Of a stretch of DNA of 50,875 nt, positions 36,400 through 50,875 are shown piece after piece. Each line of letters starts with the position of its first letter. Positions within the stretch are counted from its first letter, which is position 1. The stretch lies in contig JAGWWP010000011.1 of assembly GCA_018970325.1 (NCBI GenBank), positions 1-50,875 on the forward strand, read 5' to 3'. Source of the stretch: Cyanobacteria bacterium REEB446. GTDB lineage: Bacteria > Cyanobacteriota > Vampirovibrionia > LMEP-6097. A program made the translations under genes and the position numbers. The notes under the pieces are model-generated. The model saw only the letters and a program-made list of their open reading frames with translations, had not been told where the DNA came from and made no database searches.

Positions 36400-39381
36400 C
36401 TACTCAACTCCTATTGTATTATCGCTTTTAAATATTTTCCAGTGACCTTCACTAATAAGGCTAGAAAGCTCATTAGTATTCGGATCTAAAACCACTAGCC
36501 TTATCCATTCATTATAGAAAAGGTTCTGTAAAACAGTGTTTTTAGAAATAATTTTCTTTACTCTATCTATCGGTGAAAAGATAAAGACTCTTAGCCTTAA
36601 AGGTCTATGATAAAGCTCATCATCAGCACTCATTACTGACTGCAACGCTAGTCCCGTGTAAAGATCACTAGCATTACCTTGCATAACCCCAAAGTTTCCA
36701 ACTATATTATGCGTAATTTTACTGCCACTACCGAAATTAACATTATCTACAGTAGAGAAGTAGTACTGGCTATTGATCCACTGAGTAACTACCATTGGTG
36801 CAGTCATAATAGTTTCTAAAAGTAAACCATTAGAGTCTTGGGTCCAGTCATAAGAGTGCATGAAAGCACGATTAGATAGATCGAGTCCTTTACTTAAATA
36901 ACGAGGACCGATAATAAAACAGGTGTTTCCAGCGAGTCCCCACTCTGGTCTTACTTCAGACCAATCCATAGACCTTCTCAGGGACTGCTCGCAAACTCCA
37001 ATTTCTGCGTTTTCGTCGTCCTCATGATCCTCATGTACGTTAAGTACACTGCGGTCATTCGTCCTCCTCAGCCTTGAACTTGCACCTTTGTGAGCAGTCC
37101 CCTCAACAGTGCCATTATCAGATTTAATTTCTACATCCTGATTAATATTACTCTCTAATTCTCTTGAAGAAAGGAAACTAAGCTGTCTAATAGCATTATT
37201 CTCTTTCTTAGCCTGCACTAATGATTCTTGTAAATCAGCTAGAAGCTTTCTTTGCTCACTTGTCTTAAGCTCATAATCATAAAACTCAAAATCATCAGTA
37301 GTCGTATTGTGCTCAGCGCCTATAAATAATGTAGAATCTGGAATATTAATTCCTCTTTTAGCAAGCTCTGATCTGATCTCTTGCTTATTTAAAATCTTCG
37401 CTAAAGCTTTAGCATTAACGCCTCCATGATTACCAGCACAGGCGCCACAGTCTAAAGCAGAAGCATAAGGATTATTCTCAGTAGTACTTCCATGACCTGA
37501 GAAGACCACTAATGGAGCAAAATTCTGCGTTAGACCCATTAACCTTAAAGCCATTTCAGAGAACAGTAACTGTTCTTTTTTAGCTAAACCTGTAAAAATA
37601 TGCTTCACTTCAGTACCACTAAGGTCTTCATCAGGAGTGCTCGCAGCATTTATTACTGTATCTTTTACATCAAGCATAGGCTCAAAGAAGATTTTAGGTT
37701 TAATCGCAGCTGAGATCCTGCTTAATAAAGCATTTAGAGAAGGGGTTAAAGTCCTAATCATCATACTAAGCATATAGAGTGGTCCAGAAGCTTCAGCGAA
37801 TATAAACGCAGATGCGATATTAGCTTTTAAAGCCTTATAGACATTAAAAATCGTTTTCAGTAATGAATTAGAATATTCATGCTGCTCAAGCTTATGTGAG
37901 CAAGAACTGTGTACTTGCTCATCAATAAAGTGTTTAGGCTTAATTAATACCGGGCAAGCATCTTTAAATTCAGCAGAACCATGCTCTTTGTAGCTTATCG
38001 GCAAGCCGAAAAAGCCAGCAAACCCTAATGTCTCAATTCTAGAATCAGCTTCAATACAGCGTCTTATCCCCTCTGATCTAACATCTATACAAAAAACCAT
38101 TTGAGCAAGCTGTTTAGAGTTTAATGAATTTAAAAAAAGTACTGAAGAATTATTAGAGGTAGATTTATCACCCACTAAAGATTTTCTGTAATTCCTATAA
38201 ATATCATCAACAATAGGCTTCTGAAAACTGTCTTCCCAAGCGGAAAGCCATATCATCGCCTCCCTTTCTAGAAAAATGTTTAGTGGAGCCCTGATTAAAG
38301 TTAACTCTTCATCAGTAAGTAAGGAGAAGTCAGCATAATAAAGGTTAGCAAGTGTGGTTTTTAATTTTTCATCTGTAAATAAATATCTTTCACGTTCTAA
38401 TTCCTCTGGAGACTTGAAATTTTTAGTTAAAACCTGCTTCGCTAAAAGCCTTTCTAATTCCTCAAAACAAGTCAACTGAATATTATTAACTCTAAAATAA
38501 TCAAACAAGAAAATAGCTTCAACACAAAGTCTAACAGCTAAATACTCCAATTTAGAAGCTGGATACTTTTTATATTCTGGAATATGAGCATATAGATGAC
38601 GCCATTTTATAAATGAAGCCCAGCCAGGAAGAGCTGCTAAACTAGCTTTTAAATACTCTTCCCAATCTTCTCTCTTGATACCAAGCGAATCAAGTAAAAC
38701 TATTAAAGCCCTTTCAGGGCAATCTGGAAGCTGTTCAAACCATTCACGTAAATGCTTATCTAGCTTTAAATCAGAATCATACAGTGCTAAAGCCTTCCAT
38801 GCAGCATAAAACCCTTTCTCTCTATTAGGCATCTGCCAAACAGATATGCCTTCATCAAAAAAATGATTAAAGATTTTAATCATATAATTATTAACATCAC
38901 CTAACAGATCACCACTCTCAACTCTTCTACTATGTGGGTAAACAGAAGGATTCGCTAAATTTTTAAACTCTAATTCCCTAGAAAAAAAGATCTCCCAAAG
39001 AAGTTTTTTTAAATTTATATCTTTATTTAAAACTTTTACATCTAATTCTATATCCTCTATCGCCTTCTCGAAATATTCATTCAAAGCAGCTAAGGATATT
39101 TCCTCTCTATCGTAGAGTTCTAAATATTTAGATTTTTTTAAAAAGCAATTAGCTGAAAAATATTTCTTAGCTTGCTTCGCTGCCTGAAGAAAATGCTTAT
39201 CTTCAAAGCCTTTCAAAGGATTTACAGCAATGAAAGTTTTTAAAGACCAGTAAGGAGCAATAATTTCAGAGGCATTCGAAATAAGTGCCTGCACCATAGC
39301 TGAATTGAATTTTTCAGATTCGAAATTATCTACGACTTCTTTTAATTTATTACTTAGATTATATTCGCTAAAAATATCCAT
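36400..39381 (-). CDS. dabA: DabA inorganic-carbon accumulation protein (DUF2309) with repeat insertion
   Basis: Cytoplasmic beta-carbonic-anhydrase-like subunit of the DAB complex, thought to hydrate CO2 unidirectionally using a cation gradient via DabB. All four zinc/active-site residues are visible: C431 and D433 (FCIDVRSEGIRR), H630 (VVFSGHGSTTENNP) and C645 (DCGACAGNHGG). The spacings of 2 and 15 are as in Halothiobacillus DabA2 (C351/D353/H524/C539). 993 residues, longer than usual, partly because about residues 760-800 are encoded by the palindromic repeat. The normal sequence resumes at MDWSEVRPEWGLAGNTCFI. The frame is intact. Second gene of the operon; GAGGA precedes the ATG. Confidence 0.93.
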   Translation of the reverse strand: MDIFSEYNLSNKLKEVVDNFESEKFNSAMVQALISNASEIIAPYWSLKTFIAVNPLKGFEDKHFLQAAKQAKKYFSANCFLKKSKYLELYDREEISLAALNEYFEKAIEDIELDVKVLNKDINLKKLLWEIFFSRELEFKNLANPSVYPHSRRVESGDLLGDVNNYMIKIFNHFFDEGISVWQMPNREKGFYAAWKALALYDSDLKLDKHLREWFEQLPDCPERALIVLLDSLGIKREDWEEYLKASLAALPGWASFIKWRHLYAHIPEYKKYPASKLEYLAVRLCVEAIFLFDYFRVNNIQLTCFEELERLLAKQVLTKNFKSPEELERERYLFTDEKLKTTLANLYYADFSLLTDEELTLIRAPLNIFLEREAMIWLSAWEDSFQKPIVDDIYRNYRKSLVGDKSTSNNSSVLFLNSLNSKQLAQMVFCIDVRSEGIRRCIEADSRIETLGFAGFFGLPISYKEHGSAEFKDACPVLIKPKHFIDEQVHSSCSHKLEQHEYSNSLLKTIFNVYKALKANIASAFIFAEASGPLYMLSMMIRTLTPSLNALLSRISAAIKPKIFFEPMLDVKDTVINAASTPDEDLSGTEVKHIFTGLAKKEQLLFSEMALRLMGLTQNFAPLVVFSGHGSTTENNPYASALDCGACAGNHGGVNAKALAKILNKQEIRSELAKRGINIPDSTLFIGAEHNTTTDDFEFYDYELKTSEQRKLLADLQESLVQAKKENNAIRQLSFLSSRELESNINQDVEIKSDNGTVEGTAHKGASSRLRRTNDRSVLNVHEDHEDDENAEIGVCEQSLRRSMDWSEVRPEWGLAGNTCFIIGPRYLSKGLDLSNRAFMHSYDWTQDSNGLLLETIMTAPMVVTQWINSQYYFSTVDNVNFGSGSKITHNIVGNFGVMQGNASDLYTGLALQSVMSADDELYHRPLRLRVFIFSPIDRVKKIISKNTVLQNLFYNEWIRLVVLDPNTNELSSLISEGHWKIFKSDNTIGVE
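36981..37101. repeat. Palindromic repeat element, copy 3 (inside dabA)
   Basis: Arms GGGACTGCTCGCAAA (36981-36995) and TTTGTGAGCAGTCCC (37087-37101) pair 14 of 15. The core is nearly identical to copy 1. It is in frame with dabA and contributes ASSRLRRTNDRSVLNVHEDH then EDDENAEIGVCEQS. Confidence 0.9.
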
Positions 39382-39394
39382 ATGTAAATTTTCC

Positions 39395-40804
39395 TCAATG
39401 ATAGAGATGATTAGTCTCCTTTAAATAAGCATAATCCCCCCTTGAAGAAGTATAAGTAGAAGCTTTCGCTCTCGATGAGTTCATTAAAAACGCATACAGA
39501 GGCAGTCTTAAGTTCATCGGCAGTAAACTTAAAAGATCTTTTTTAAAGTGCATAAGAGTCCAAAGCGTTATAAATACTGAACTTACAAAATAATGTAAAG
39601 CTGTAAGCCTATAAGTCTCACTGACTACAGAAGAAGCTAAAAGCTGCTCAAAGAAATGCAAGAAAGATCCATAAATAATAGCCACCACAGAAGAGCTAAG
39701 CAGTGCTAAGAAAAAAGTCAAATAAAGATTTATCGTTTTCTGAGCTTCTTTAATAATGTTAAAAGAAAGCTCTGTCAGTGCCATAGCAATAAAAATCAGA
39801 AGAATAAAACTGCTGTCTTCAAAATTAATTGAAATATGTGAAGCACCAGAAAACAAGTAAAGAGCCACAGAGGCTATGCTTAAAGATATCAAAAAATTAA
39901 TACCAACGGAAACCTGCTTCATATCCTTATTTAAAGCAAGTTTTAAAATTTTCAGCTCTGAGAAAGCTGAGCCTGCTGAAAGGAAATGAAAAGCTTTAAA
40001 AAAACCGTGCATACAGAGATGACTAATAGCAGCAGGATAAAGTCCTAGACCTATCTGCATAAACATAAAGCCCATCTGTGAAATAGTAGAAGAGACTAGA
40101 ACCCCTTTAACAGAGCTCTTCACGAACAGCCACAGCATAGCAGTAAAAGCAGACATTGAGCCGATAATAAATATTAAAGGCAAGCTCGCTGATTGAGTTT
40201 CTAAAGCCATAGCAAATTTAATGAGTAAATATCCTCCGCCATTCACTAAACCAGCGTGCATTAAAGCAGAGACCGGAGTCGGAGTATTGATAGACGACAT
40301 TAACCAGCCATGAAAAGGCAGTTGAGCAGACTGAGTCATAGCCGTAATTATTAATAAAGCTAATAGAACACACTGGAAAAATGGATCTAGATTCGCAAAA
40401 GCAAGCAGAGTTTCTGAAATAGAAAAAGTCTTAGTTAAACTAAAACTTAATCCTATAAATAAAAGAAGACTTATAATCCCCACAGTAAAATTTTTCGCTG
40501 CTAGAATACCAGACTCTAGAGCCTGCTTCCAAAAAGCCTTATGAACTATCATCATAACAAGAATTAAATTACTAAAAGCCCATAGAGCAGCAAAAAGTAA
40601 AAGATTATCTGCATTAAACATACAGATAAGTGAAGTTATTAAAATACTTAGTCTTATAAAAAAGCCTTTATATTCAGCATCGCCACTCATATACCTCACT
40701 GAATATGCAGTAACTACCAAGCCTACTATGATTACAAGACAGCTCATAACCAAACTAAGTGCATCTATCCGAAATAAATTTTGGCTTATAAGCATCTCTT
40801 CCAT
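39395..40804 (-). CDS. dabB: DabB, NuoL-like membrane subunit of the DAB transporter
   Basis: Polytopic member of the NADH-quinone oxidoreductase chain L/antiporter family: about 13 hydrophobic segments, with the ion-channel signature QLPFHGWLMSSINTPTPVSALMHAGLVNGGGYLL (starts near residue 160) and SQMGFMFMQIGLGLYPAAI. 469 residues, shorter than NuoL (~600), as in DabB. It is paired with dabA 13 nt downstream; energy coupling (H+ or Na+) is presumed. ATG 40804 is preferred to the TTG immediately before it. No other complex I genes are present, which excludes nuoL. Confidence 0.9.
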   Translation of the reverse strand: MEEMLISQNLFRIDALSLVMSCLVIIVGLVVTAYSVRYMSGDAEYKGFFIRLSILITSLICMFNADNLLLFAALWAFSNLILVMMIVHKAFWKQALESGILAAKNFTVGIISLLLFIGLSFSLTKTFSISETLLAFANLDPFFQCVLLALLIITAMTQSAQLPFHGWLMSSINTPTPVSALMHAGLVNGGGYLLIKFAMALETQSASLPLIFIIGSMSAFTAMLWLFVKSSVKGVLVSSTISQMGFMFMQIGLGLYPAAISHLCMHGFFKAFHFLSAGSAFSELKILKLALNKDMKQVSVGINFLISLSIASVALYLFSGASHISINFEDSSFILLIFIAMALTELSFNIIKEAQKTINLYLTFFLALLSSSVVAIIYGSFLHFFEQLLASSVVSETYRLTALHYFVSSVFITLWTLMHFKKDLLSLLPMNLRLPLYAFLMNSSRAKASTYTSSRGDYAYLKETNHLYH

Positions 40805-40863
40805 CAATGACCATAATAGTTAAAGTTTATTTATTAGTAAAGTTAAAGTATTTTATCGGGGCT

Positions 40864-40878
40864 ATTAGTTTCACTAAT
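40864..40878. promoter_or_regulatory. LysR-type operator between dabB and lysR
   Basis: ATTAGT-TTC-ACTAAT, a perfect 6-bp inverted repeat containing a T-N11-A motif, in the 97-nt divergent gap. A half-site ATTAGT recurs at 40833-40838 nearer dabB. It overlaps the lysR promoter region, as expected for autoregulation plus activation of the divergent operon. Confidence 0.65.
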
Positions 40879-40885
40879 GATCGAT

Positions 40886-40891
40886 TATAAT
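40886..40891 (+). promoter_or_regulatory. -10 element of the lysR gene
   Basis: TATAAT 10 nt before the ATG at 40902. The following TTAATATAATGAAT is shared with the fic start region. Confidence 0.5.
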
Positions 40892-40901
40892 AATTAATAT
40901 A

Positions 40902-41753
40902 ATGAATAATCTGGAGATTTCTAGTTTACAGTGCTTTATCGCTTTAGCCGAGCATACGAGCTTTACTCAAGCGGCGAATCGAATTAATATAACTCAATCA
41001 GCCATCTCTCAACAGATCGCTAAATTAGAAAAACAGCTTAAAACTCAGCTTTTCCACAGAGGACGCACAAATACTTTAACTCACTCTGGAGAAATACTTC
41101 TCACTTACGCAAAAGAGATTCTAAGACTAGAGCAGGAAGCTATAGATTATTTTAAAGAACCAGAATTAGAAGGTGAGATAAGATTCGGCTTGCCAGAGGA
41201 TTTCGCCACAGTATTTTTACACAAAGTTCTTTCTGATTTTTCAGCTAGTCACCCACGTATCTCCGTTAGTGTAGAATGTGACCTCACCCTTAATCTCCTA
41301 AATAGCTTTAAAAAGAAACAGTTCGACCTAGTTCTAGTGAAGCTCTATGATCAAAATGACTTTCCTAATGGTGTCGAAATATGGAGCGAAAAACTAGTCT
41401 GGGTAGCAGCTCATAACTATACGCATAAAAATAAAGCTGGAGCTAAACTTCCTTTAGTCTTATCACCTAAACCCTGCGTCTACAGAGCAAGGGCCATAGA
41501 AGCCTTAGACAAGGCTAACACTCCATGGAAAATCGTTTACTCCAGCCCAAGCTTCGCCGGGGCAACAGCCGCAGTTAAAGCAGGCATGGGTATTACAGTA
41601 CTGCCTTTAAATATGGTTCCTAGTGGGCTTGATATATATAGAGATAAATCTCTGCCCGACTTAGAGGATACCCATATTACTTTGCTTAGTAAAGAGAATG
41701 CTAAGAAATCAGTAAAGTCTTTTGCTGATTATGTTTTGAAGCAGTTGCATTAG
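40902..41753 (+). CDS. LysR-type regulator, CbbR/CmpR-like position
   Basis: 283 residues: N-terminal winged helix-turn-helix (SSLQCFIALAEHTSFTQAANRINITQSAISQQIAKLEK..., about 5-65) and a periplasmic-binding-protein-like effector domain (IRFGLPEDFATVFLHKVLSDF onward). Divergent from dabB with a LysR-type palindrome between, so it very likely controls the DAB operon, by analogy with CbbR/CcmR regulators of carbon-concentrating genes. The effector ligand is unknown. The 3' end abuts a hicB remnant. Confidence 0.88.
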   Translation: MNNLEISSLQCFIALAEHTSFTQAANRINITQSAISQQIAKLEKQLKTQLFHRGRTNTLTHSGEILLTYAKEILRLEQEAIDYFKEPELEGEIRFGLPEDFATVFLHKVLSDFSASHPRISVSVECDLTLNLLNSFKKKQFDLVLVKLYDQNDFPNGVEIWSEKLVWVAAHNYTHKNKAGAKLPLVLSPKPCVYRARAIEALDKANTPWKIVYSSPSFAGATAAVKAGMGITVLPLNMVPSGLDIYRDKSLPDLEDTHITLLSKENAKKSVKSFADYVLKQLH

Positions 41754-43573: not shown

Positions 43574-43623
43574 ATTCACTAAAAAATAAATTCCCGTTAC
43601 TTCATTAAGAAAATTTAGTGAAT
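43574..43623. repeat. 10-bp inverted repeat in the gap 43437-43726
   Basis: ATTCACTAAA (43574-43583) and TTTAGTGAAT (43614-43623), perfect, 30 nt apart. It lies upstream of the His-rich operon and could be a regulator binding site such as a Fur/Zur-family operator pair. The rest of this 290-nt gap is A+T-rich without a recognisable gene. Confidence 0.4.
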
Positions 43624-43726
43624 AAATTGCATTACGTAATAATATGATAACATCGTTAATGTAATCTTATAACAATAGTGAGATTCAACAAGACCTAAAA
43701 AGCCCCAGACCTTTTAACTAGCCTTC

Positions 43727-44875
43727 ATGCTAAACGCCACTCTTAGCTCAAATAATCACGCAGCTTTAGATACTTACATTAAGACTCTAAGCGGAAAGAG
43801 AATATCTGATTTAGAACAGAATCCAGAGCTGAGAGATTTCGTAAAAGAATATCAGTCTAAATATGGCTTTCACCTACATCTTAAGAATGGAGATGAGCTA
43901 GATCCCTGTGATGGTGATCATCATCATAGGCCTAGTACAGATACACTTAAATCTTTACATGAAGAGGATAAGCATAGTCATAATCATGGCGCATCAAAAA
44001 CCCAAGAACCTAAACACGATATACAGCACACTCACGCCCACGAAGCCCATAATCACACAGAGCATCATAGCCATAATCACGCCCACGATAAAGAAAAAAA
44101 AGGATTTCTAGAAAAGTTAATAAGTAACATTTCTGAAAATGAATCTATCCCTAAAGCATTAAAGCCTATACTCGCTAGAGCCACTATAAATACTGCAAAT
44201 ATTTTCCTAGCCCAAGGACTCAGTCTGCCACTGCATCATATACATAGTCCTAACGAAATTACGAATGGCTCTGCAGTCGCTGCCATGCATTTACTAAATT
44301 ATGGCACTCAAAAATGGGAAAGCCTAGCAAAAAATTTACTTACCATAATACCCTTCGTAGCTTTACACAGAGTAGTAAAAGTCCCTAGCTTCGTAATGAG
44401 ATCAGCTCTAGGACTAGCGATCAGCCTAAGCGAGCAGCTCACTCAAGGTGATAAAAGTAAAAATACTCTAGATAAAATTAAAGAGACCTTTACTAAAGAT
44501 GCTTCTAAATTCTTAGTTAAACTAGCACAGATGGAAAGCATGTTAAATACGGCGATCCCATTAGGGCAGACTATCGCTAAAAATGTCCCGAATAAAGCTT
44601 TAGCTTTTATTAGCCAAAACCTAGTAATGGCTGGGGCTTTCACTCTTATCCCCGAGTTATTTAAAGCATTTAAGAAAGATACCGATAAATCTCATCCTGA
44701 CCTAAATCACGCTGCCCTCAGTGCTGAACTTCTAGAATGTCCAGTATGCGGTGAAGCACATGCCGCAAATGTACACCTAGCCGAAATTTCAGAAGGGGTC
44801 AGTATCGCAGGAGCTAACAATGCTAGCGAGCAGGATAATTTACACTCTTTAGTGCATCACGGAGGGCTTCACTAA
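43727..44875 (+). CDS. His-rich putative metal-binding protein with hydrophobic core
   Basis: 382 residues, family not recognised. Residues ~62-125 are extremely His-rich (DHHHRPSTD, HTHAHEAHNHTEHHSHNHAH), as in Zn/Ni/Co transporters and chaperones. The middle (about 140-310) is helical with several hydrophobic stretches (NIFLAQGLSLPLHHIH, LLTIIPFVALHRVV, FVMRSALGLAISL). The C-terminal part has a CPVCGEAHAANVHLAE motif that could bind zinc. It is followed with no gap by a 623-residue gene and then a Fur-family regulator, suggesting a metal-responsive operon. Confidence 0.6.
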   Translation: MLNATLSSNNHAALDTYIKTLSGKRISDLEQNPELRDFVKEYQSKYGFHLHLKNGDELDPCDGDHHHRPSTDTLKSLHEEDKHSHNHGASKTQEPKHDIQHTHAHEAHNHTEHHSHNHAHDKEKKGFLEKLISNISENESIPKALKPILARATINTANIFLAQGLSLPLHHIHSPNEITNGSAVAAMHLLNYGTQKWESLAKNLLTIIPFVALHRVVKVPSFVMRSALGLAISLSEQLTQGDKSKNTLDKIKETFTKDASKFLVKLAQMESMLNTAIPLGQTIAKNVPNKALAFISQNLVMAGAFTLIPELFKAFKKDTDKSHPDLNHAALSAELLECPVCGEAHAANVHLAEISEGVSIAGANNASEQDNLHSLVHHGGLH

Positions 44876-46747
44876 ATGGTTTTAGGTCTACTAAAGAATC
44901 TACCAATTTTAAATTCCTTTTTAGCTAAGCCTGCTAGTACTAAAGAAAGCCTAGAAACTGAAGCCTCAGCGAAAGCTAACGAAAAAGCTATAGCACAGGA
45001 AGGCTTAAAGCCTTTATTTATAGTAGTCTTACCAGCAGAAGGTGATTTTTCAGAATTAAAAGCTAAGCTTAAGGAAAAGTTTAATGGTAGAGATCTGCGT
45101 TTCGAGCTAGATCCAGAGTTGAAAAAGCCGAAGCTCTATATTCTAAAGCCAAATGCTTTAGCTAAAAGAAATTTAGAGATAGCTTTAGATAAAGCTTTTA
45201 TTAAGAATAATTATAAAAGTATAGAACTTAGTGGAGATGCAAATAAGCTCGGGGAGAGCTTAGTCAAGACTATGAGTAGTGAGCTTATTTCTTTAAAGGG
45301 GGCTGAGCGAAAGATAGAGTATGCGCAGAAAGAGGCAGAGAAAGCTAATTCACGTCAGACTTTAGAGAAATTGAGTCAAATGGGAGTGCATGTTTGTTCG
45401 GCAGAGTGTGAAGAGCACAAGCAGATACTTTCAGAAAAACAGATAAAGAGTGTTAGGGATGCTCTTAGTGGTGCGAGTAATTCCAAGCCTAAAACATCAG
45501 TAAATCCTTCACGCAACACAACACAAGTTCAAGCAGGACAAAAAAGAAAAGAAGACCTAAAAGCTTTTTTTACAAAATCACAAAAATTCGAAGATAATCA
45601 TCTTGATCATAATGAACTTATTCAAGCAAGTAATTCCATTTATCTGATTCGTAATCATAATCCAGATAAGAACATTGACCTAGCGAAGATAGAGCTTACT
45701 TTCGCCCACAGAGATAATACTACTGATAATTTCACAATACGGCGATTACCTCTTATGGATTTTCTAGATGGTCTAGAATTACCAGCTAGCTCAGAGGAAA
45801 TTAATAATAAAAATTTCCACTCCAATGAATTCCATAAGAAGATAGACCCTCAAAGTTCATTATCACTACTTGACGCGATAGAACAGAAAAATTCCTCACA
45901 AGTAGAAACTGCCATTCAGGAATCTAAAAAGAAAGAAGAAGAACAATTAAAAAGCCAAATAGAACAACAACTTAAAAGCATTGCTAGGCAAATAAGAACA
46001 TATATTAAAAAAACCGAACAAAAAAGTGTAACGCCACTCATAAAGCTCAATAGTTTTAGTACAGGACTCCAGCAGCAGGTAGAAGAATTTAGAGTTAAAA
46101 ACTTGGCAACAAATATAAAAAATTTATTTCAAGTAATTTCATCTCCAACAAATCAAGAGCAATTTAAAAATCTTGATGGGAAAATCGCACAAGAATATAG
46201 AGATACTAGAATTAGAATCGCTAAAGAGCTTGATGTAGATGAACTACTCGGTGCTAGCATTACAGATAAAGATAGTCCTGAAGCAAAAACAGAGAAAGAA
46301 AGCATATTAGGACAGCTAGAACAATCCGATCCAATAAGCCAAAAAATCAATCGTGAGTTAGCTCAACGAGATGATTTTAAAAACTCAAAAGACCCTAAAA
46401 CCGGAAAAGAAGAACACGACAAACAAGTAGGCGGAATCGCTCTCACTGGACAGCTTTCATTTATAGATCGAAAAGATTTTCATGAAAGAAATCAAACCTA
46501 TAAAGACTTTCCAGAATTACCAGAGAGCTGGAAGACAGAACCTGATTCACCTAAAACTACTACTCAAGAGACCCAGACAAATCACAATCCAGTAAGCAAT
46601 ACTCCACAAACTACAGCACAGGAGCCTACTAAAACCAGTACAGAGACTATCAATCACCATACAGAAGCAGCTACTAGTCACCCAAGTGAGCTAGTGAACC
46701 CAGCAGCAGAAGAGAACCTAGATAGAGAAAATAAAACGCAGTTATAA
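44876..46747 (+). CDS. Hypothetical 623-residue protein of the His-rich/Zur operon
   Basis: Not recognised. The ATG directly follows the upstream stop. Residues 1-~200 are an alpha/beta region with strongly biased Ala/Lys/Glu/Leu content; near residue 172 is HVCSAECEEHKQ, a possible Cys/His metal site. The rest is hydrophilic, Gln/Asn/Lys-rich and largely coiled coil (about 330-390), ending in a Thr/Gln/Asn/Pro-rich low-complexity tail. No transmembrane helix or signal peptide is evident. Codon and base use shifts toward more A around 45480, so it may be a two-part fusion. Role inferred only from position: metal-linked. Confidence 0.5.
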   Translation: MVLGLLKNLPILNSFLAKPASTKESLETEASAKANEKAIAQEGLKPLFIVVLPAEGDFSELKAKLKEKFNGRDLRFELDPELKKPKLYILKPNALAKRNLEIALDKAFIKNNYKSIELSGDANKLGESLVKTMSSELISLKGAERKIEYAQKEAEKANSRQTLEKLSQMGVHVCSAECEEHKQILSEKQIKSVRDALSGASNSKPKTSVNPSRNTTQVQAGQKRKEDLKAFFTKSQKFEDNHLDHNELIQASNSIYLIRNHNPDKNIDLAKIELTFAHRDNTTDNFTIRRLPLMDFLDGLELPASSEEINNKNFHSNEFHKKIDPQSSLSLLDAIEQKNSSQVETAIQESKKKEEEQLKSQIEQQLKSIARQIRTYIKKTEQKSVTPLIKLNSFSTGLQQQVEEFRVKNLATNIKNLFQVISSPTNQEQFKNLDGKIAQEYRDTRIRIAKELDVDELLGASITDKDSPEAKTEKESILGQLEQSDPISQKINRELAQRDDFKNSKDPKTGKEEHDKQVGGIALTGQLSFIDRKDFHERNQTYKDFPELPESWKTEPDSPKTTTQETQTNHNPVSNTPQTTAQEPTKTSTETINHHTEAATSHPSELVNPAAEENLDRENKTQL

Positions 46748-46764
46748 TACAGGAAGAAAGCCTC

Positions 46765-47190
46765 ATGCCCCATCTACACCCACACCAAGAAAACTTCATC
46801 GAAAAAGCCCTAGAGAAACTAAAGCAGCATGCCTTTAAATCCACTAGGGCACGCAATGATATTTTAGAAGCTATCGCCAAATACGATAAAGCCCTCTCTG
46901 CATACGAGCTTCAGGATTTACTAAAAAATGAAGGGAAAAATTATTCAGCGATCACTATATATCGGGTCATAGAGACGCTTTTAGAATTAGATATAGTGCA
47001 TAAAGTTCATTCGATAAATAGTTTTATGAAATGCTGTGAGCATAAGAATCACCTACATCGCCTACTAGTCTGTAAAAGCTGCCATAGCGTGAAGCCCGTA
47101 GAGAGAGCAGCTACAGAGCTTCATATAAATGGCTTTGCGCAGATAGAAGTTATTGATGAAGTTTTAGGTCTCTGCGAGAAGTGCCATTAA
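46765..47190 (+). CDS. Fur-family metalloregulator, Zur-like
   Basis: 141 residues: winged helix (STRARNDILEAIAKYDKALSAYELQDLL, YSAITIYRVIETLLELDIVH, about 26-80) followed by the dimerisation/metal domain. The structural zinc site is C103-x2-C106 and C137-x2-C140. Regulatory-site candidates include the CCEHKNHLHRLLVCKSCH histidines and cysteines. Among Fur, Zur, PerR and Mur, Zur is favoured by the His/Cys-rich sensing loop and the upstream His-rich gene. It is 17 nt downstream of the 623-residue gene, so probably in the same operon and perhaps autoregulated. Confidence 0.8.
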   Translation: MPHLHPHQENFIEKALEKLKQHAFKSTRARNDILEAIAKYDKALSAYELQDLLKNEGKNYSAITIYRVIETLLELDIVHKVHSINSFMKCCEHKNHLHRLLVCKSCHSVKPVERAATELHINGFAQIEVIDEVLGLCEKCH

Positions 47191-47203
47191 GAAAAACCCT
47201 GAT

Positions 47204-47245
47204 AACCATGTAAATCAAACACTGGTGTTTCTAAAATGCATGGTT
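47204..47245. repeat. Nested hairpin after the Fur-family gene
   Basis: Outer stem AACCATG / CATGGTT (47204-47210, 47239-47245) encloses an inner AAACAC-TG-GTGTTT palindrome (47217-47230). It could act as a terminator or a protein-binding site; there is no long T tract. Confidence 0.4.
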
Positions 47246-47399
47246 GTTTAAGCAGAAGATTAGAAGGAAAGTTAGAAAAAAGCCTTAGCGCTCACCTGTA
47301 GTGGCTATATTAGGACCTAGGCGATGTGATAAACCGACATTGGCTAAATCTTAGCTTTACATTCGAGATAGTGGCTTATTTCATAATTTAATTAAGGTT

Positions 47400-47447
47400 G
47401 ATAATTTTGCAAGCCTGCTTGCCCACCCTAGAACCCTGAAAATTATC
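47400..47447. ncRNA. Structured intergenic element, nature unknown
   Basis: GATAATTTT (47400-47408) and AAAATTATC (47439-47447) form a perfect 9-bp outer stem. Directly inside, GCAAGC-CT-GCTTGC (47409-47422) is a perfect 6-bp hairpin. It lies in the 282-nt gap 47191-47472 just after the hsdR stop (minus strand). It may be an RNA structure or a terminator-like element; no RNA family is recognised and no tRNA is present. Confidence 0.35.
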
Positions 47448-47472
47448 CAAAGATCTATAGATAAAACACAAG

Positions 47473-50400
47473 CTAAACTCCTGCACTCCACTCATCAGCT
47501 AAAACCTCTGCCTGACTAAGAATCAAGCTTACTGCATCTTCTGCTTTATCTGGCGGATAACCGTATTTCTGAAGAGTTCTTCTAACTATGATTCTCAAAC
47601 TCGCTCTAATACTCTCTCTTTTCTGCCAGTCTACAGTAGTGGATTTCCTAAGCTTTTCAGTAATTTCTTTAGCTATCATTTTTAGAGTCTCATCACCTAA
47701 ATCTTTAGCACTAGAATTATTATTTAAGGCATCAAAAAAAGCGAGTTCATCACTACTAAGCCCCATAGATTCAGCATAAGCAGCATCTTCAGAGCATTCT
47801 TTAGCCATATTTAAGAGTTCTTGCAAGGCTTTTAAATTAGTAATAAAACCTTGATGATATCTTAAAAGGGTCTCTTTGAGCCTATCAGCATATTTCTTCT
47901 CTTTAATTAGATTAGTCTTAAATTTAGCTTTAATATGATCTGCTAGAAGTCTTTCTAATAGCTCTAAAGCTAAATTTTTATGCGGCATCTCTGCGACTTC
48001 TTTTAGAAACTCTGGCTCTAAAAGGCTAATATCTGGTCTATCAATACCACATAATGAATACAAGTCTGTGACTTCATCTGCGACTATAGCATTATCTAAA
48101 ATCTGTTTCAGGGTAGAATCTTTAGTTCTTGCTTTGCGTTTTTTATCTACATTAGTGAGTTTACTAATAAAGACTTTTACTGTATTTAAAAATGCTATTT
48201 CTTCTTCATATTCGAAAGCCTCTTCCATAGTAGAACATAAAGAATTAGCGATATTAAGAGCGAGAATTAAATCAAAGAACCTTCGTTTACCATCCTCTAA
48301 GCCAATAATATAATCTGCGGCAGGAACTAATAATTCTTTAGCTTTAGTTTTATAAGCTGAATAATCAAAGCCGCTAGATCTAGGAGTTTTTTTAAATAGT
48401 GTTCTAATTAAATCTAGTTTTTCTTTTAGTATAGTGAAAGCTGCATTTAAATCTTGAGTAGGCTGTCCTTTACCAGATGAGTCAGTATAAGTCTTATAAG
48501 CCTCTTTCAGGTTATTAAATATCCCTATATAATCTACGATTAAGCCACTAGGCTTATCTTTAAAGACTCTATTTACTCTAGCTATAGCCTGCATTAGATT
48601 ATGTCCTTTCATCGGCTTATCTACATACATAGTCGTACAGCAAGGCACATCAAAGCCAGTTAGCCACATATCTCTAACTATGACTAATTTAAGTGGATCA
48701 CTCGGATCTTTAAAACGTTTCTCTAAATCTTTTCTAGTGCTTTTATTATACACATGCTTAGAAATATGCGGAGCATCTGAAGGAGAACCAGTCATGATGA
48801 TCTTTATAGCTCCTTTATTAGGATTATCATCATGCCATTCTGCTTTTAATTTAATAATTTCATCATACAGGCTTACACAGATCTCTCTAGACATAGTGAC
48901 TATCATAGCCTTGCCACTCAGCTTAGATTCTCGTTCATCATAGTGTGAGATTAGATCTTGAGCTATTTTCTCTAATCTATTTTTAGCTCCTACTAATTTT
49001 TCTAATTTACTCCATTTGATTTTAGCCTTTTCCTGAAACTCTAAATCCTCCTCATTTTCAGGGACATCTTCTAACTCAGCAGAAAGATTATTAATTTCAT
49101 CATTATTAAGATCCAGTCTAGTTAAGCGTGGTTGATAGTATATAGGCACTGTAGCCTCGTCATCTACAGCATCTTTAATATCATAGATAGAGATATAATC
49201 TCCGAATACCGCTCTAGTATCTTTATCTCTTAATGATATAGGCGTGCCAGTAAAGCCGATGAATGTAGCATTAGGAATGGCATCCCGTAAATGCCTAGCG
49301 TAACCATATTTATAAATACCTCGCTTATGGTCTAATTGAGCATTTAAGCCGTATTGGCTGCGATGTGCTTCATCTGAAATAACCACTATATTATCTCTAG
49401 AGTTTAAAACTGGGTGCCTTTCTTCATCTCCAGAAAGAGTGAATTTATGGACAGTAGTAAATATAATCCCGCCTACATCCCTTGCAGCTAAAGCTTCTCT
49501 AAGCTCTAGTCTATTTTCAGCTTGAATCGGCTCCTGCCCGAATAACTCTTTAGTGTTACAGAAAGTGCCGTATAACTGCCCGTCTAAATCATTTCTATCA
49601 GTAACTACTAATATAGTCGGGTTTTTCAGGGCTGCTAATTTAATTAATTTAGCTACATAACAGCACATAGAGATACTTTTTCCAGATCCCTGTGTATGCC
49701 AGATCACACCTGCTTTTTTACTATTTACTTCGACTTTCGCTCTTAAGACTAAAGCTGTAGAATTACTAGCTTCTTTTAAAATCGCTCCAGAAGCGATTAA
49801 TGTAGCTTTCACAGCCTCTCTTACTGCATGGAATTGATGATAAGCTGCAATTTTTTTAATAATTTTAGATTCTTCATTAGTCTCAAAGATAATAAAATAG
49901 CGAATGTAATCTAATAACATTTCCAAATTAAAGAATCCTCGAACTAAAGTCTCTAACTGCCATTCATGCTTAGGCTTATCAAGCTCATTTTTAATAGCCT
50001 TCCATGGAGTAAATCTTTCTTCATTAGCAGTAAGTGAGCCTAAGCGTGCTGTCACTCCATCACTAATTACTAAAGCCTCATTAAAAATAAATAAGTCAGT
50101 AATTTCTTCTTTATAGACCTGTAATTGATTAAAAGCATTCCAAATATCAGCATCTTCTCTACTAGGGCTTTTCAGCTCAATTACGAATAAAGGCAAACCA
50201 TTAATAAAACATACTATATCTGGTCTTCTTAGCTGTTTAGAACCTTTTATCGTAAACTGGTTTACAGCTTTAAAAGAATTTACTTTATTATCAAAGTCCT
50301 CAAAGTCAATCAGGAAAAGCTTATCATCGACCAGCTCCCCATCTATTTTATACTTCACATCAATTCCATCTAAAAGTAATTTATGAAAAGCCTTATTATT

Positions 50401-50649
50401 AATGATTAAATCTAAAGAATCTGGTCTTGCAAGCCTAGTAATGGTCTCAGTGATAGTCTCTAAAGGGATTTGTGGATTAATCCTCTCAAGAGCAGTGCTT
50501 AAAGTCTTTTTCAGAAGCACTTCAGTATAGCTGTCACGCTCTGGATTAGCACTATCTGGAGCTATATCTATTTCGTGAATGACATCCCAGCCGAGAGATT
50601 GAAACCATGGCAAGCAGTATTTTTCTTCTAATTCAGTTTCGGTGATCAT
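47473..50649 (-). CDS. hsdR: Type I restriction enzyme R subunit
   Basis: Motor and nuclease subunit of a type I restriction-modification system. PD-(D/E)xK nuclease: RRPDIVCFINGLPLFVIELK with D144, E158 and K160. Superfamily 2 translocase: Walker A HTQGSGKS (318-325), DEAH at 426-429, FIGFTGTP motif III, and motifs IV-VI through QAIARVNRVF. C-terminal helical region from ~770. 1058 residues is normal and the frame is complete. hsdM and hsdS are absent from the window. The gene upstream on this strand is only a RhuM fragment whose TGA overlaps the hsdR ATG by two bases. Confidence 0.94.
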   Translation of the reverse strand: MITETELEEKYCLPWFQSLGWDVIHEIDIAPDSANPERDSYTEVLLKKTLSTALERINPQIPLETITETITRLARPDSLDLIINNKAFHKLLLDGIDVKYKIDGELVDDKLFLIDFEDFDNKVNSFKAVNQFTIKGSKQLRRPDIVCFINGLPLFVIELKSPSREDADIWNAFNQLQVYKEEITDLFIFNEALVISDGVTARLGSLTANEERFTPWKAIKNELDKPKHEWQLETLVRGFFNLEMLLDYIRYFIIFETNEESKIIKKIAAYHQFHAVREAVKATLIASGAILKEASNSTALVLRAKVEVNSKKAGVIWHTQGSGKSISMCCYVAKLIKLAALKNPTILVVTDRNDLDGQLYGTFCNTKELFGQEPIQAENRLELREALAARDVGGIIFTTVHKFTLSGDEERHPVLNSRDNIVVISDEAHRSQYGLNAQLDHKRGIYKYGYARHLRDAIPNATFIGFTGTPISLRDKDTRAVFGDYISIYDIKDAVDDEATVPIYYQPRLTRLDLNNDEINNLSAELEDVPENEEDLEFQEKAKIKWSKLEKLVGAKNRLEKIAQDLISHYDERESKLSGKAMIVTMSREICVSLYDEIIKLKAEWHDDNPNKGAIKIIMTGSPSDAPHISKHVYNKSTRKDLEKRFKDPSDPLKLVIVRDMWLTGFDVPCCTTMYVDKPMKGHNLMQAIARVNRVFKDKPSGLIVDYIGIFNNLKEAYKTYTDSSGKGQPTQDLNAAFTILKEKLDLIRTLFKKTPRSSGFDYSAYKTKAKELLVPAADYIIGLEDGKRRFFDLILALNIANSLCSTMEEAFEYEEEIAFLNTVKVFISKLTNVDKKRKARTKDSTLKQILDNAIVADEVTDLYSLCGIDRPDISLLEPEFLKEVAEMPHKNLALELLERLLADHIKAKFKTNLIKEKKYADRLKETLLRYHQGFITNLKALQELLNMAKECSEDAAYAESMGLSSDELAFFDALNNNSSAKDLGDETLKMIAKEITEKLRKSTTVDWQKRESIRASLRIIVRRTLQKYGYPPDKAEDAVSLILSQAEVLADEWSAGV

Positions 50650-50750
50650 GGGTTATTGTTTTGGTGAATTGATTTTTTCAGCACATTATCGAAATCACTT
50701 TCTAATAGTTTATCTTGAAGAATGCGATATTTTTCCAGGGCTGTCTCATT
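50646..50750 (-). pseudogene. C-terminal remnant of a RhuM-family protein
   Basis: The frame ETALEKYRILQDKLLESDFD continues to NNNP and ends at TGA (50646-50648) overlapping the hsdR start. RhuM-family proteins end in a very similar EKYRIxQDxLxxSDFD motif and are often encoded inside type I restriction operons. Upstream in this frame there is a TAG at 50751-50753, and the sequence beyond is unrelated, so only ~34 residues remain. Confidence 0.55.
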
Positions 50751-50756
50751 CTAAAA

Positions 50757-50875
50757 TATTTCAAGAATCCATACAGACGTAAGTCTGGCCAAATCTGTAA
50801 AGTCATGTCTCAATAGAGGAATGGTAAAAGAGATAGAGGATATAGGAATAGTCGAATGTTTTGAGGATTTGGAAG
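50757..50875 (+). other. Possible partial ORF running off the window end
   Basis: The plus-strand frame reads NISRIHTDVSLAKSVKSCLN then RGMVKEIEDIGIVECFEDLE with no stop to the window end. It has no visible start codon nearby; the composition is protein-like, but the family is unknown. Confidence 0.2.

Follow-up and report, generated by a model that had tools for sequence, protein, structure and literature searches.

The window analysed here, the 50,875 nucleotides of contig JAGWWP010000011.1 of Cyanobacteria bacterium REEB446 (assembly GCA_018970325.1, Vampirovibrionia), is one entire contig (C5) of a draft genome, designated G000 below, that totals 2.25 Mb over 97 contigs. Near its right end lie three adjoining plus-strand genes, A, B and a regulator gene, which an earlier note made from the sequence alone had proposed to form an undescribed metal-handling operon with a Zur-like regulator. 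Conservation of the trio in relatives, the FUR domain of the regulator and the lack of a family for A and B all support this proposal. The locus comprises the following features.

43727..44875, plus strand: gene A, a 382-residue His-rich protein with a predicted helical core and a C-terminal CPVCGEAH
43919..44086, plus strand: His-rich stretch of A, residues 65-120, without confident structure
44738..44761, plus strand: CPVCGEAH of A, residues 338-345
44876..46747, plus strand: gene B, a 623-residue, fast-evolving partner without a family
45389..45409, plus strand: HVCSAEC of B, starting at residue 172; HxCxxxC kept in three genomes
46765..47190, plus strand: regulator gene, a 141-residue Zur-like FUR-family protein
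43643..43648, plus strand: putative -10 element TATGAT, kept in three genomes and absent from the consensus-scan list
43660..43674, no strand assigned: predicted Zur box TGTAATCTTATAACA, from box conservation and a scoring model
43574-43583 / 43614-43623, no strand assigned: 10-bp inverted repeat with exact arms, probably not the operator
47201..47248 (approximate), plus strand: nested hairpin 3′ of the regulator gene, a possible transcript end without a T run

The genes and their products

All three reading frames were confirmed. Those of A and B abut exactly, TAA being followed by ATG, which suggests coupled synthesis of the two proteins; the regulator gene starts 17 bases past the B stop codon. 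Comparison with G001, a genome of the same genus, gave ratios of nonsynonymous to synonymous substitution rates (dN/dS) of 0.15 for A, 0.35 for B and 0.05 for the regulator, and protein identities of 73%, 50% and 96%, respectively. By their dN/dS values all three are real coding genes under constraint, with A and, most of all, B changing fast. A divergent Fic-domain gene lies upstream of the trio and the convergent type I restriction gene hsdR downstream. The nested hairpin noticed previously after the trio is indeed present (-14.4 kcal/mol, z -2.33, 5 of 200 shuffles being equally good).

The regulator carries a FUR domain (PF01475, 6.3e-14, 52.6 bits against a cut-off of 23.1) and, as reported in the earlier note, two CxxC pairs (C103/C106 and C137/C140) that form the structural zinc site. 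Its best NCBIfam match is Zur (NF008646); we call it Zur-like, and not a member of the equivalog, because the score, 67.5 bits, falls under the cut-off of 167. Zur is also the best NCBIfam match for the corresponding regulators of two relatives, G006 and G023. Among solved structures the closest are the Fur-family regulator 7dh7 and the Zur of E. coli (4mtd). Residues His79, Cys90 and His96 align with the sensory His/Cys/His of the latter, to which His77 belongs.

Protein A contains 34 histidines, not the approximately 25 counted at first, with 17 of them in one 55-residue stretch; its histidine fraction (8.9%) is the highest among the 46 open reading frames (ORFs) of at least 100 residues in the window (mean 2.2%). 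The CPVCGEAH near the C-terminus, starting at residue 338, is found as described. Across the family, members share an N-terminal part that varies and is rich in His and Cys, a conserved helical core with invariant residues M187, G193 and R225 (window numbering) and a C-terminal motif, which reads CPVCGEAH in the members accompanied by B and mostly CACCGAPVC or CGCCGxPVC elsewhere. Of the tail cysteines, C341 is invariant and C338 present in at least 90% of a 17-row alignment; both are invariant in a 16-row alignment. A profile built from five members found A in 15 of 382 genomes of the class, 7 of them in the window's own family (f1) and 8 in a second one (f6), and a profile of 16 members found it in 8 of 386 genomes of the phylum, every one belonging to f1 or f6.

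Neither A nor B has a match above the curated cut-off in Pfam or NCBIfam, or any PHROGs match at E up to 0.01, in agreement with the earlier view that both stand outside recognised families. Three weak Pfam matches to A all fall below cut-off. One is to the ZIP transporter family (PF02535; E 0.29, 10.7 bits against 35.1), and it covers residues 79-126, that is, the His stretch only; A was therefore rejected as a ZIP transporter. A plasmid or phage origin was likewise rejected, A having no match among 72,556 plasmid records and B none among 50,697 phage records (each protein was searched in that one set), and an f6 alignment of the A family found no match in viral contigs.

Structure prediction for the A protein of the window, from five sequences, was poor (mean predicted local distance difference test, pLDDT, 52.6), apart from a separate, fairly confident small domain at residues ~1-62. 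In the fetched loci, with their 2350 distinct ORFs, this N-terminal domain occurs only in the three A proteins of the trios, apart from two further matches with E values of 0.06 and 0.19. A second prediction, which models the shorter G018 relative with 16 sequences and not the window protein, gave about seven core helices at moderate confidence (pLDDT 69.4, predicted template-modelling score 0.63). None of 240 Foldseek rows for this core reached E <= 0.001, a result from which we do not conclude that the fold is new; the best VIA match (Z 8.9 over 94 residues) lies within the chance range for helix arrangements, and the best profile match of A to solved structures has an E of 0.52. Inspection by eye revealed no clear signal sequence in A.

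B was found in 3 of the 382 class genomes (G000, G001 and G006), exactly those that carry the trio, and looks like a lineage-specific addition on account of this narrow distribution. The HVCSAEC motif attributed to it is present. Its profile matched no solved structure at E <= 1.

A second A-like protein in G023 (452 residues, L035:12356-13714) is encoded between two outer-membrane protein genes and has an altered C-terminal motif. This divergent gene was included in alignment A4 and dropped from A5 and from the box test described below.

A palindromic box upstream of A and of zigA

Comparison of upstream regions revealed a 7-1-7 palindromic box, TGYAAYANTRTTRCA-like, before A and, in relatives, before zigA, the gene for a GTPase metallochaperone. 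According to PMC6103462, Zur boxes may be palindromes of this form. The window copy (43660-43674) sits 11 bases past TATGAT, and the pair is aligned in G000, G001 and G006. Boxes precede A in G000, G001, G006, G023, G053 and G028, zigA in G000, G001 and G004, folE in G006, and outer-membrane protein genes in G006 (an exact box) and G028. Before zigA of G001 the box is a perfect palindrome, TGTAATACTATTACA; the A-proximal box of G006 reads TGTAATTTTGTAACA. The f6 form, TGCAATAnTATTGCA, stands before A in G023 and G053, each time with a second, looser copy, and A of G028 has two looser TGCAA-type boxes. In G055 a similar box lies upstream of a Fur-family gene itself.

When each genome was left out in turn, seven of the eight training sites scored higher than every one of 201,279 background windows, and the eighth higher than all but 3; the motif having first been spotted by inspection of these same upstream regions, site and leave-one-out counts are partly circular. 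A fairer test used a model trained on five zigA/folE sites and no A sites, from genomes that also carry A. Here the A genes linked to a regulator scored 14.3, 12.4, 15.9, 11.8, 11.8 and 6.1, that is, at least 11.8 in five of six cases, the G006 value being that of the trained folE site in a shared intergenic region and the lowest that of G028. None of the ten unlinked A genes reached 10 (maximum 9.1). Only 6 of 215 control genes did so, the top three being divergent neighbours that share zigA or A sites. At a threshold of 5 the model loses power, retaining all six linked genes along with 3 of 10 unlinked ones and 54 of 215 controls. The boxes are predicted sites, at which the regulator may bind and repress in a zinc-dependent manner.

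The 10-bp repeat at 43574-43623, put forward in the earlier note as the regulator's binding site, exists as an exact repeat and was rejected as the best operator candidate. When the 290-base upstream region was simulated 2000 times with a first-order Markov model, 189 of the sequences held a perfect repeat of 10 bp or more with arms at most 60 apart; G001, the nearest relative, has a change in one of the arms. On conservation, the predicted box at 43660-43674 appears a much better candidate.

Two further sets of sites came to light. A near palindrome, TGTAATGGAATTACA, occurs in many copies in G006 (e.g., C29:8838-8852) and inflates the loose-pattern count of that genome; it is not among the sites for G000, G001 and G004. 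In the regions L036:8987-10160 (G051) and L021:1939-2925 (G034), boxes TGCAGTATTATTGCA and TGCAATTTTATTGCA precede a small gene that by eye is Hfq-like (no Pfam match in the one checked), followed by a gene for an RNA-recognition-motif protein and near a Fur-family gene.

Gene neighbourhoods in relatives

Lack of co-occurrence in other genomes had been named as grounds for giving up the operon; the trio was found in the same order and on the same strand in G000, G001 and G006, all of one Melainabacteria family. In G001 the gene for a ZigA-type GTPase, convergent to the regulator gene and about 100 bases away, exceeds the ZigA equivalog cut-off of 600 bits, scoring 617.7. In G006, which belongs to another genus, folE and the genes for a small mercury-transport-like membrane protein and a GTPase are divergent from A. 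A 4.4 kb contig of G004 holds two regulators and the GTPase, and that genome has no match to B.

Sixteen A genes were examined for their neighbourhoods (G004 contributes two, both kept). A Fur-family gene is close to A in six, in the order A-B-regulator in the three trios and regulator then A in G023, G053 and G028. In 6 of the 16 (G018, G023, G053, G045, G003 and G008) A is followed by a gene for an outer-membrane protein (PF13557 in the one checked). The vicinity of A also encodes a small, apparently secreted Cys-rich protein in G023, G053 and G041, with a weak case in G057.

Where G001 has zigA, G000 has hsdR 3′ of the regulator gene, within window positions 47190-50875. The zigA gene of G000 is on another contig, C50 (L151:1-13200), close to hsdM, DUF3644, Schlafen/AlbA, an hsdS-nucleotidyltransferase fusion, a ThsB-like TIR gene, RhuM genes and a transposase. 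Probably a defence island was inserted between regulator and zigA in G000, the two contigs being unjoined. This zigA (G000:C50:12231-13184; L072, L151) is broken relative to that of G001, with two internal stretches of ~216 and ~65 bases missing and the remainder in three frames, the box being kept; decay or an assembly fault may account for this. Elsewhere in the window, positions 36400-41753 hold DabA (PF10070), an antiporter-like subunit and a divergent LysR gene, an arrangement conserved in G001 and likely to be an inorganic-carbon transporter.

Interpretation and relation to known systems

We favour, with a probability of roughly 0.55, an autoregulated zinc-deficiency operon in which scarce zinc would be bound and shared out by A together with B. 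The earlier note had left open a response to zinc, nickel or iron; the linked zigA and folE genes and their shared boxes favour zinc over the other two. With zinc sufficient, the zinc-loaded regulator would bind 43660-43674, just downstream of the -10 element, and repress A, B and its own gene. At low zinc all three proteins would be produced, along with ZigA, the GTPase metallochaperone encoded at an unlinked site, and, in some relatives, FolE and an outer-membrane protein. A would then capture or buffer scarce zinc on the cytoplasmic side through its His-rich arm, helical core and Cys/His tail, and pass it on; the many exchangeable His sites and the Cys/His tail would fit such capture and hand-off. 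B, which has a HxCxxxC site too, may serve as a scaffold or partner particular to this lineage, and ZigA, going by its family name, as a GTP-driven distributor within the same response. The argument for regulation is good; the analysis shows the genes, their conservation and layout, and the conserved boxes with their association to the regulator, from which we infer zinc as the sensed metal, repression, and the biochemistry of A and B, including metal binding, hand-off and cytoplasmic location.

Several findings weigh against this interpretation. Ten of the 16 A genes are unlinked to a Fur gene. CsoR-type repressors adjoin A in G018, G023 and G041 (PF02583 in the one checked, homologues in all three), and in G018, G041 and G028 A has neighbours that, judged by eye from their translations, are Czc-type efflux genes; these neighbours imply a role for A in the excess of other metals too. 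No structural match backs any function for A, and the outer-membrane protein gene of G000 has no box. One-mismatch boxes are not enriched genome-wide over a reversed control (16 against 15 in G000, 16 against 15 in G001, 19 against 16 in G004), so that single sites mean little; PMC6103462 warns that experiments confirm few computed Zur boxes. The same text gives the Zur sensory site as His, Cys, His and Glu, and in the window's regulator the Glu (E113) is displaced by two residues relative to E. coli Zur. Since A sits elsewhere with CsoR and Czc-type genes, its family probably consists of general metal-binding proteins that several regulators have recruited. Several independent features of the neighbourhoods thus speak for metal handling, though not for zinc starvation alone.

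The CsoR and Czc-type neighbours, together with the fact that two structural CxxC pairs are common to many Fur proteins, could be taken to mean that the operon responds to a different metal (iron, manganese, nickel or copper) through a Fur, PerR or Nur type regulator. We consider this unlikely, given that Zur is the best NCBIfam match for three of these regulators, that the His/Cys/His positions agree with those of E. coli Zur and that the co-boxed gene is zigA. More improbable still is a surface or stress pair under a Zur-like regulator, its His-rich part a mere linker unrelated to metal use. Such stretches can be low-complexity linkers, and B evolves fast (50% identity, dN/dS 0.35) with no match to a metal family; against this, A is boxed in six genomes, stands beside CsoR and metal-efflux genes in G018 and G041, and keeps its C-terminal Cys pair across f1 and f6.

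Zinc supply bears on a further alternative, in which A is an inner-membrane zinc carrier replacing a missing ZnuABC and B its cytoplasmic partner. ZnuA (PF01297) and ZnuB (PF00950) were recognised in none of 8 A-bearing genomes searched, out of 15, drafts being liable to miss genes; of 14 control genomes, the same searches recovered ZnuA in 11 and ZnuB in 13. The predicted seven or so core helices, the membrane proteins among several Foldseek and VIA rows and the outer-membrane protein gene next to A in 6 of 16 cases point the same way. Those structural matches are non-significant, however, and A is less hydropathic than the membrane proteins of the window: its best 19-residue segment reaches 1.5, against 2.1-2.7 for the six best of the antiporter-like protein, and no 19-residue sum in the window's A falls under a loose insertion limit. 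Furthermore, a ZIP family protein (PF02535) exists in two of the 8 genomes, G000 and G001. A membrane carrier is accordingly a doubtful proposition. We hold in similarly low regard the broader idea that the A family is a new zinc-acquisition component which, jointly with ZigA and an outer-membrane protein, takes the place of ZnuABC in these Melainabacteria, and which acts as a scaffold under Zur, CsoR or no local regulator for different metals.

The zinc-deficiency operon, if correctly read, concerns an area that seems little examined in the sources at hand, namely zinc homeostasis in the non-photosynthetic sister group of cyanobacteria. A Zur-type regulon built around an undescribed His-rich helical family offers a testable candidate for zinc acquisition or rationing without recognisable ZnuA/ZnuB, and the predicted box can be used to list the remaining regulon. 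In the parts of the literature covered, on Zur regulons, COG0523/FolE and Melainabacteria zinc, the A and B proteins are undescribed, and no study of Fur-family proteins in Vampirovibrionia was found.

Among known systems, Zur proteins (E. coli 4mtd and others) share with the regulator the FUR fold, the two CxxC pairs and the His79/Cys90/His96 register, and some of them, according to PMC6103462, the 7-1-7 box. Unlike Zur, the window regulator has the displaced Glu and the sub-cut-off score, and is linked to A and B instead of ZnuABC. PA4063 of Pseudomonas aeruginosa, Zur-regulated according to PMC8561739, resembles A in its His-rich disordered parts and in being expected in zinc deficiency; unlike A, it is there described as periplasmic with a ferredoxin-like fold, A having no evident signal, a core predicted to be helical and a tail with Cys residues. 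ZIP transporters have only a His-rich loop in common with A. The ZigA / COG0523 zinc metallochaperones (PMC2770081) are represented by the neighbouring and co-boxed gene of relatives, and A and B, unlike them, have no GTPase-family match. Precedents thus exist for Zur regulons, for His-rich zinc proteins and for ZigA; the A and B families and the architecture that brings them together matched nothing in the libraries and literature covered.

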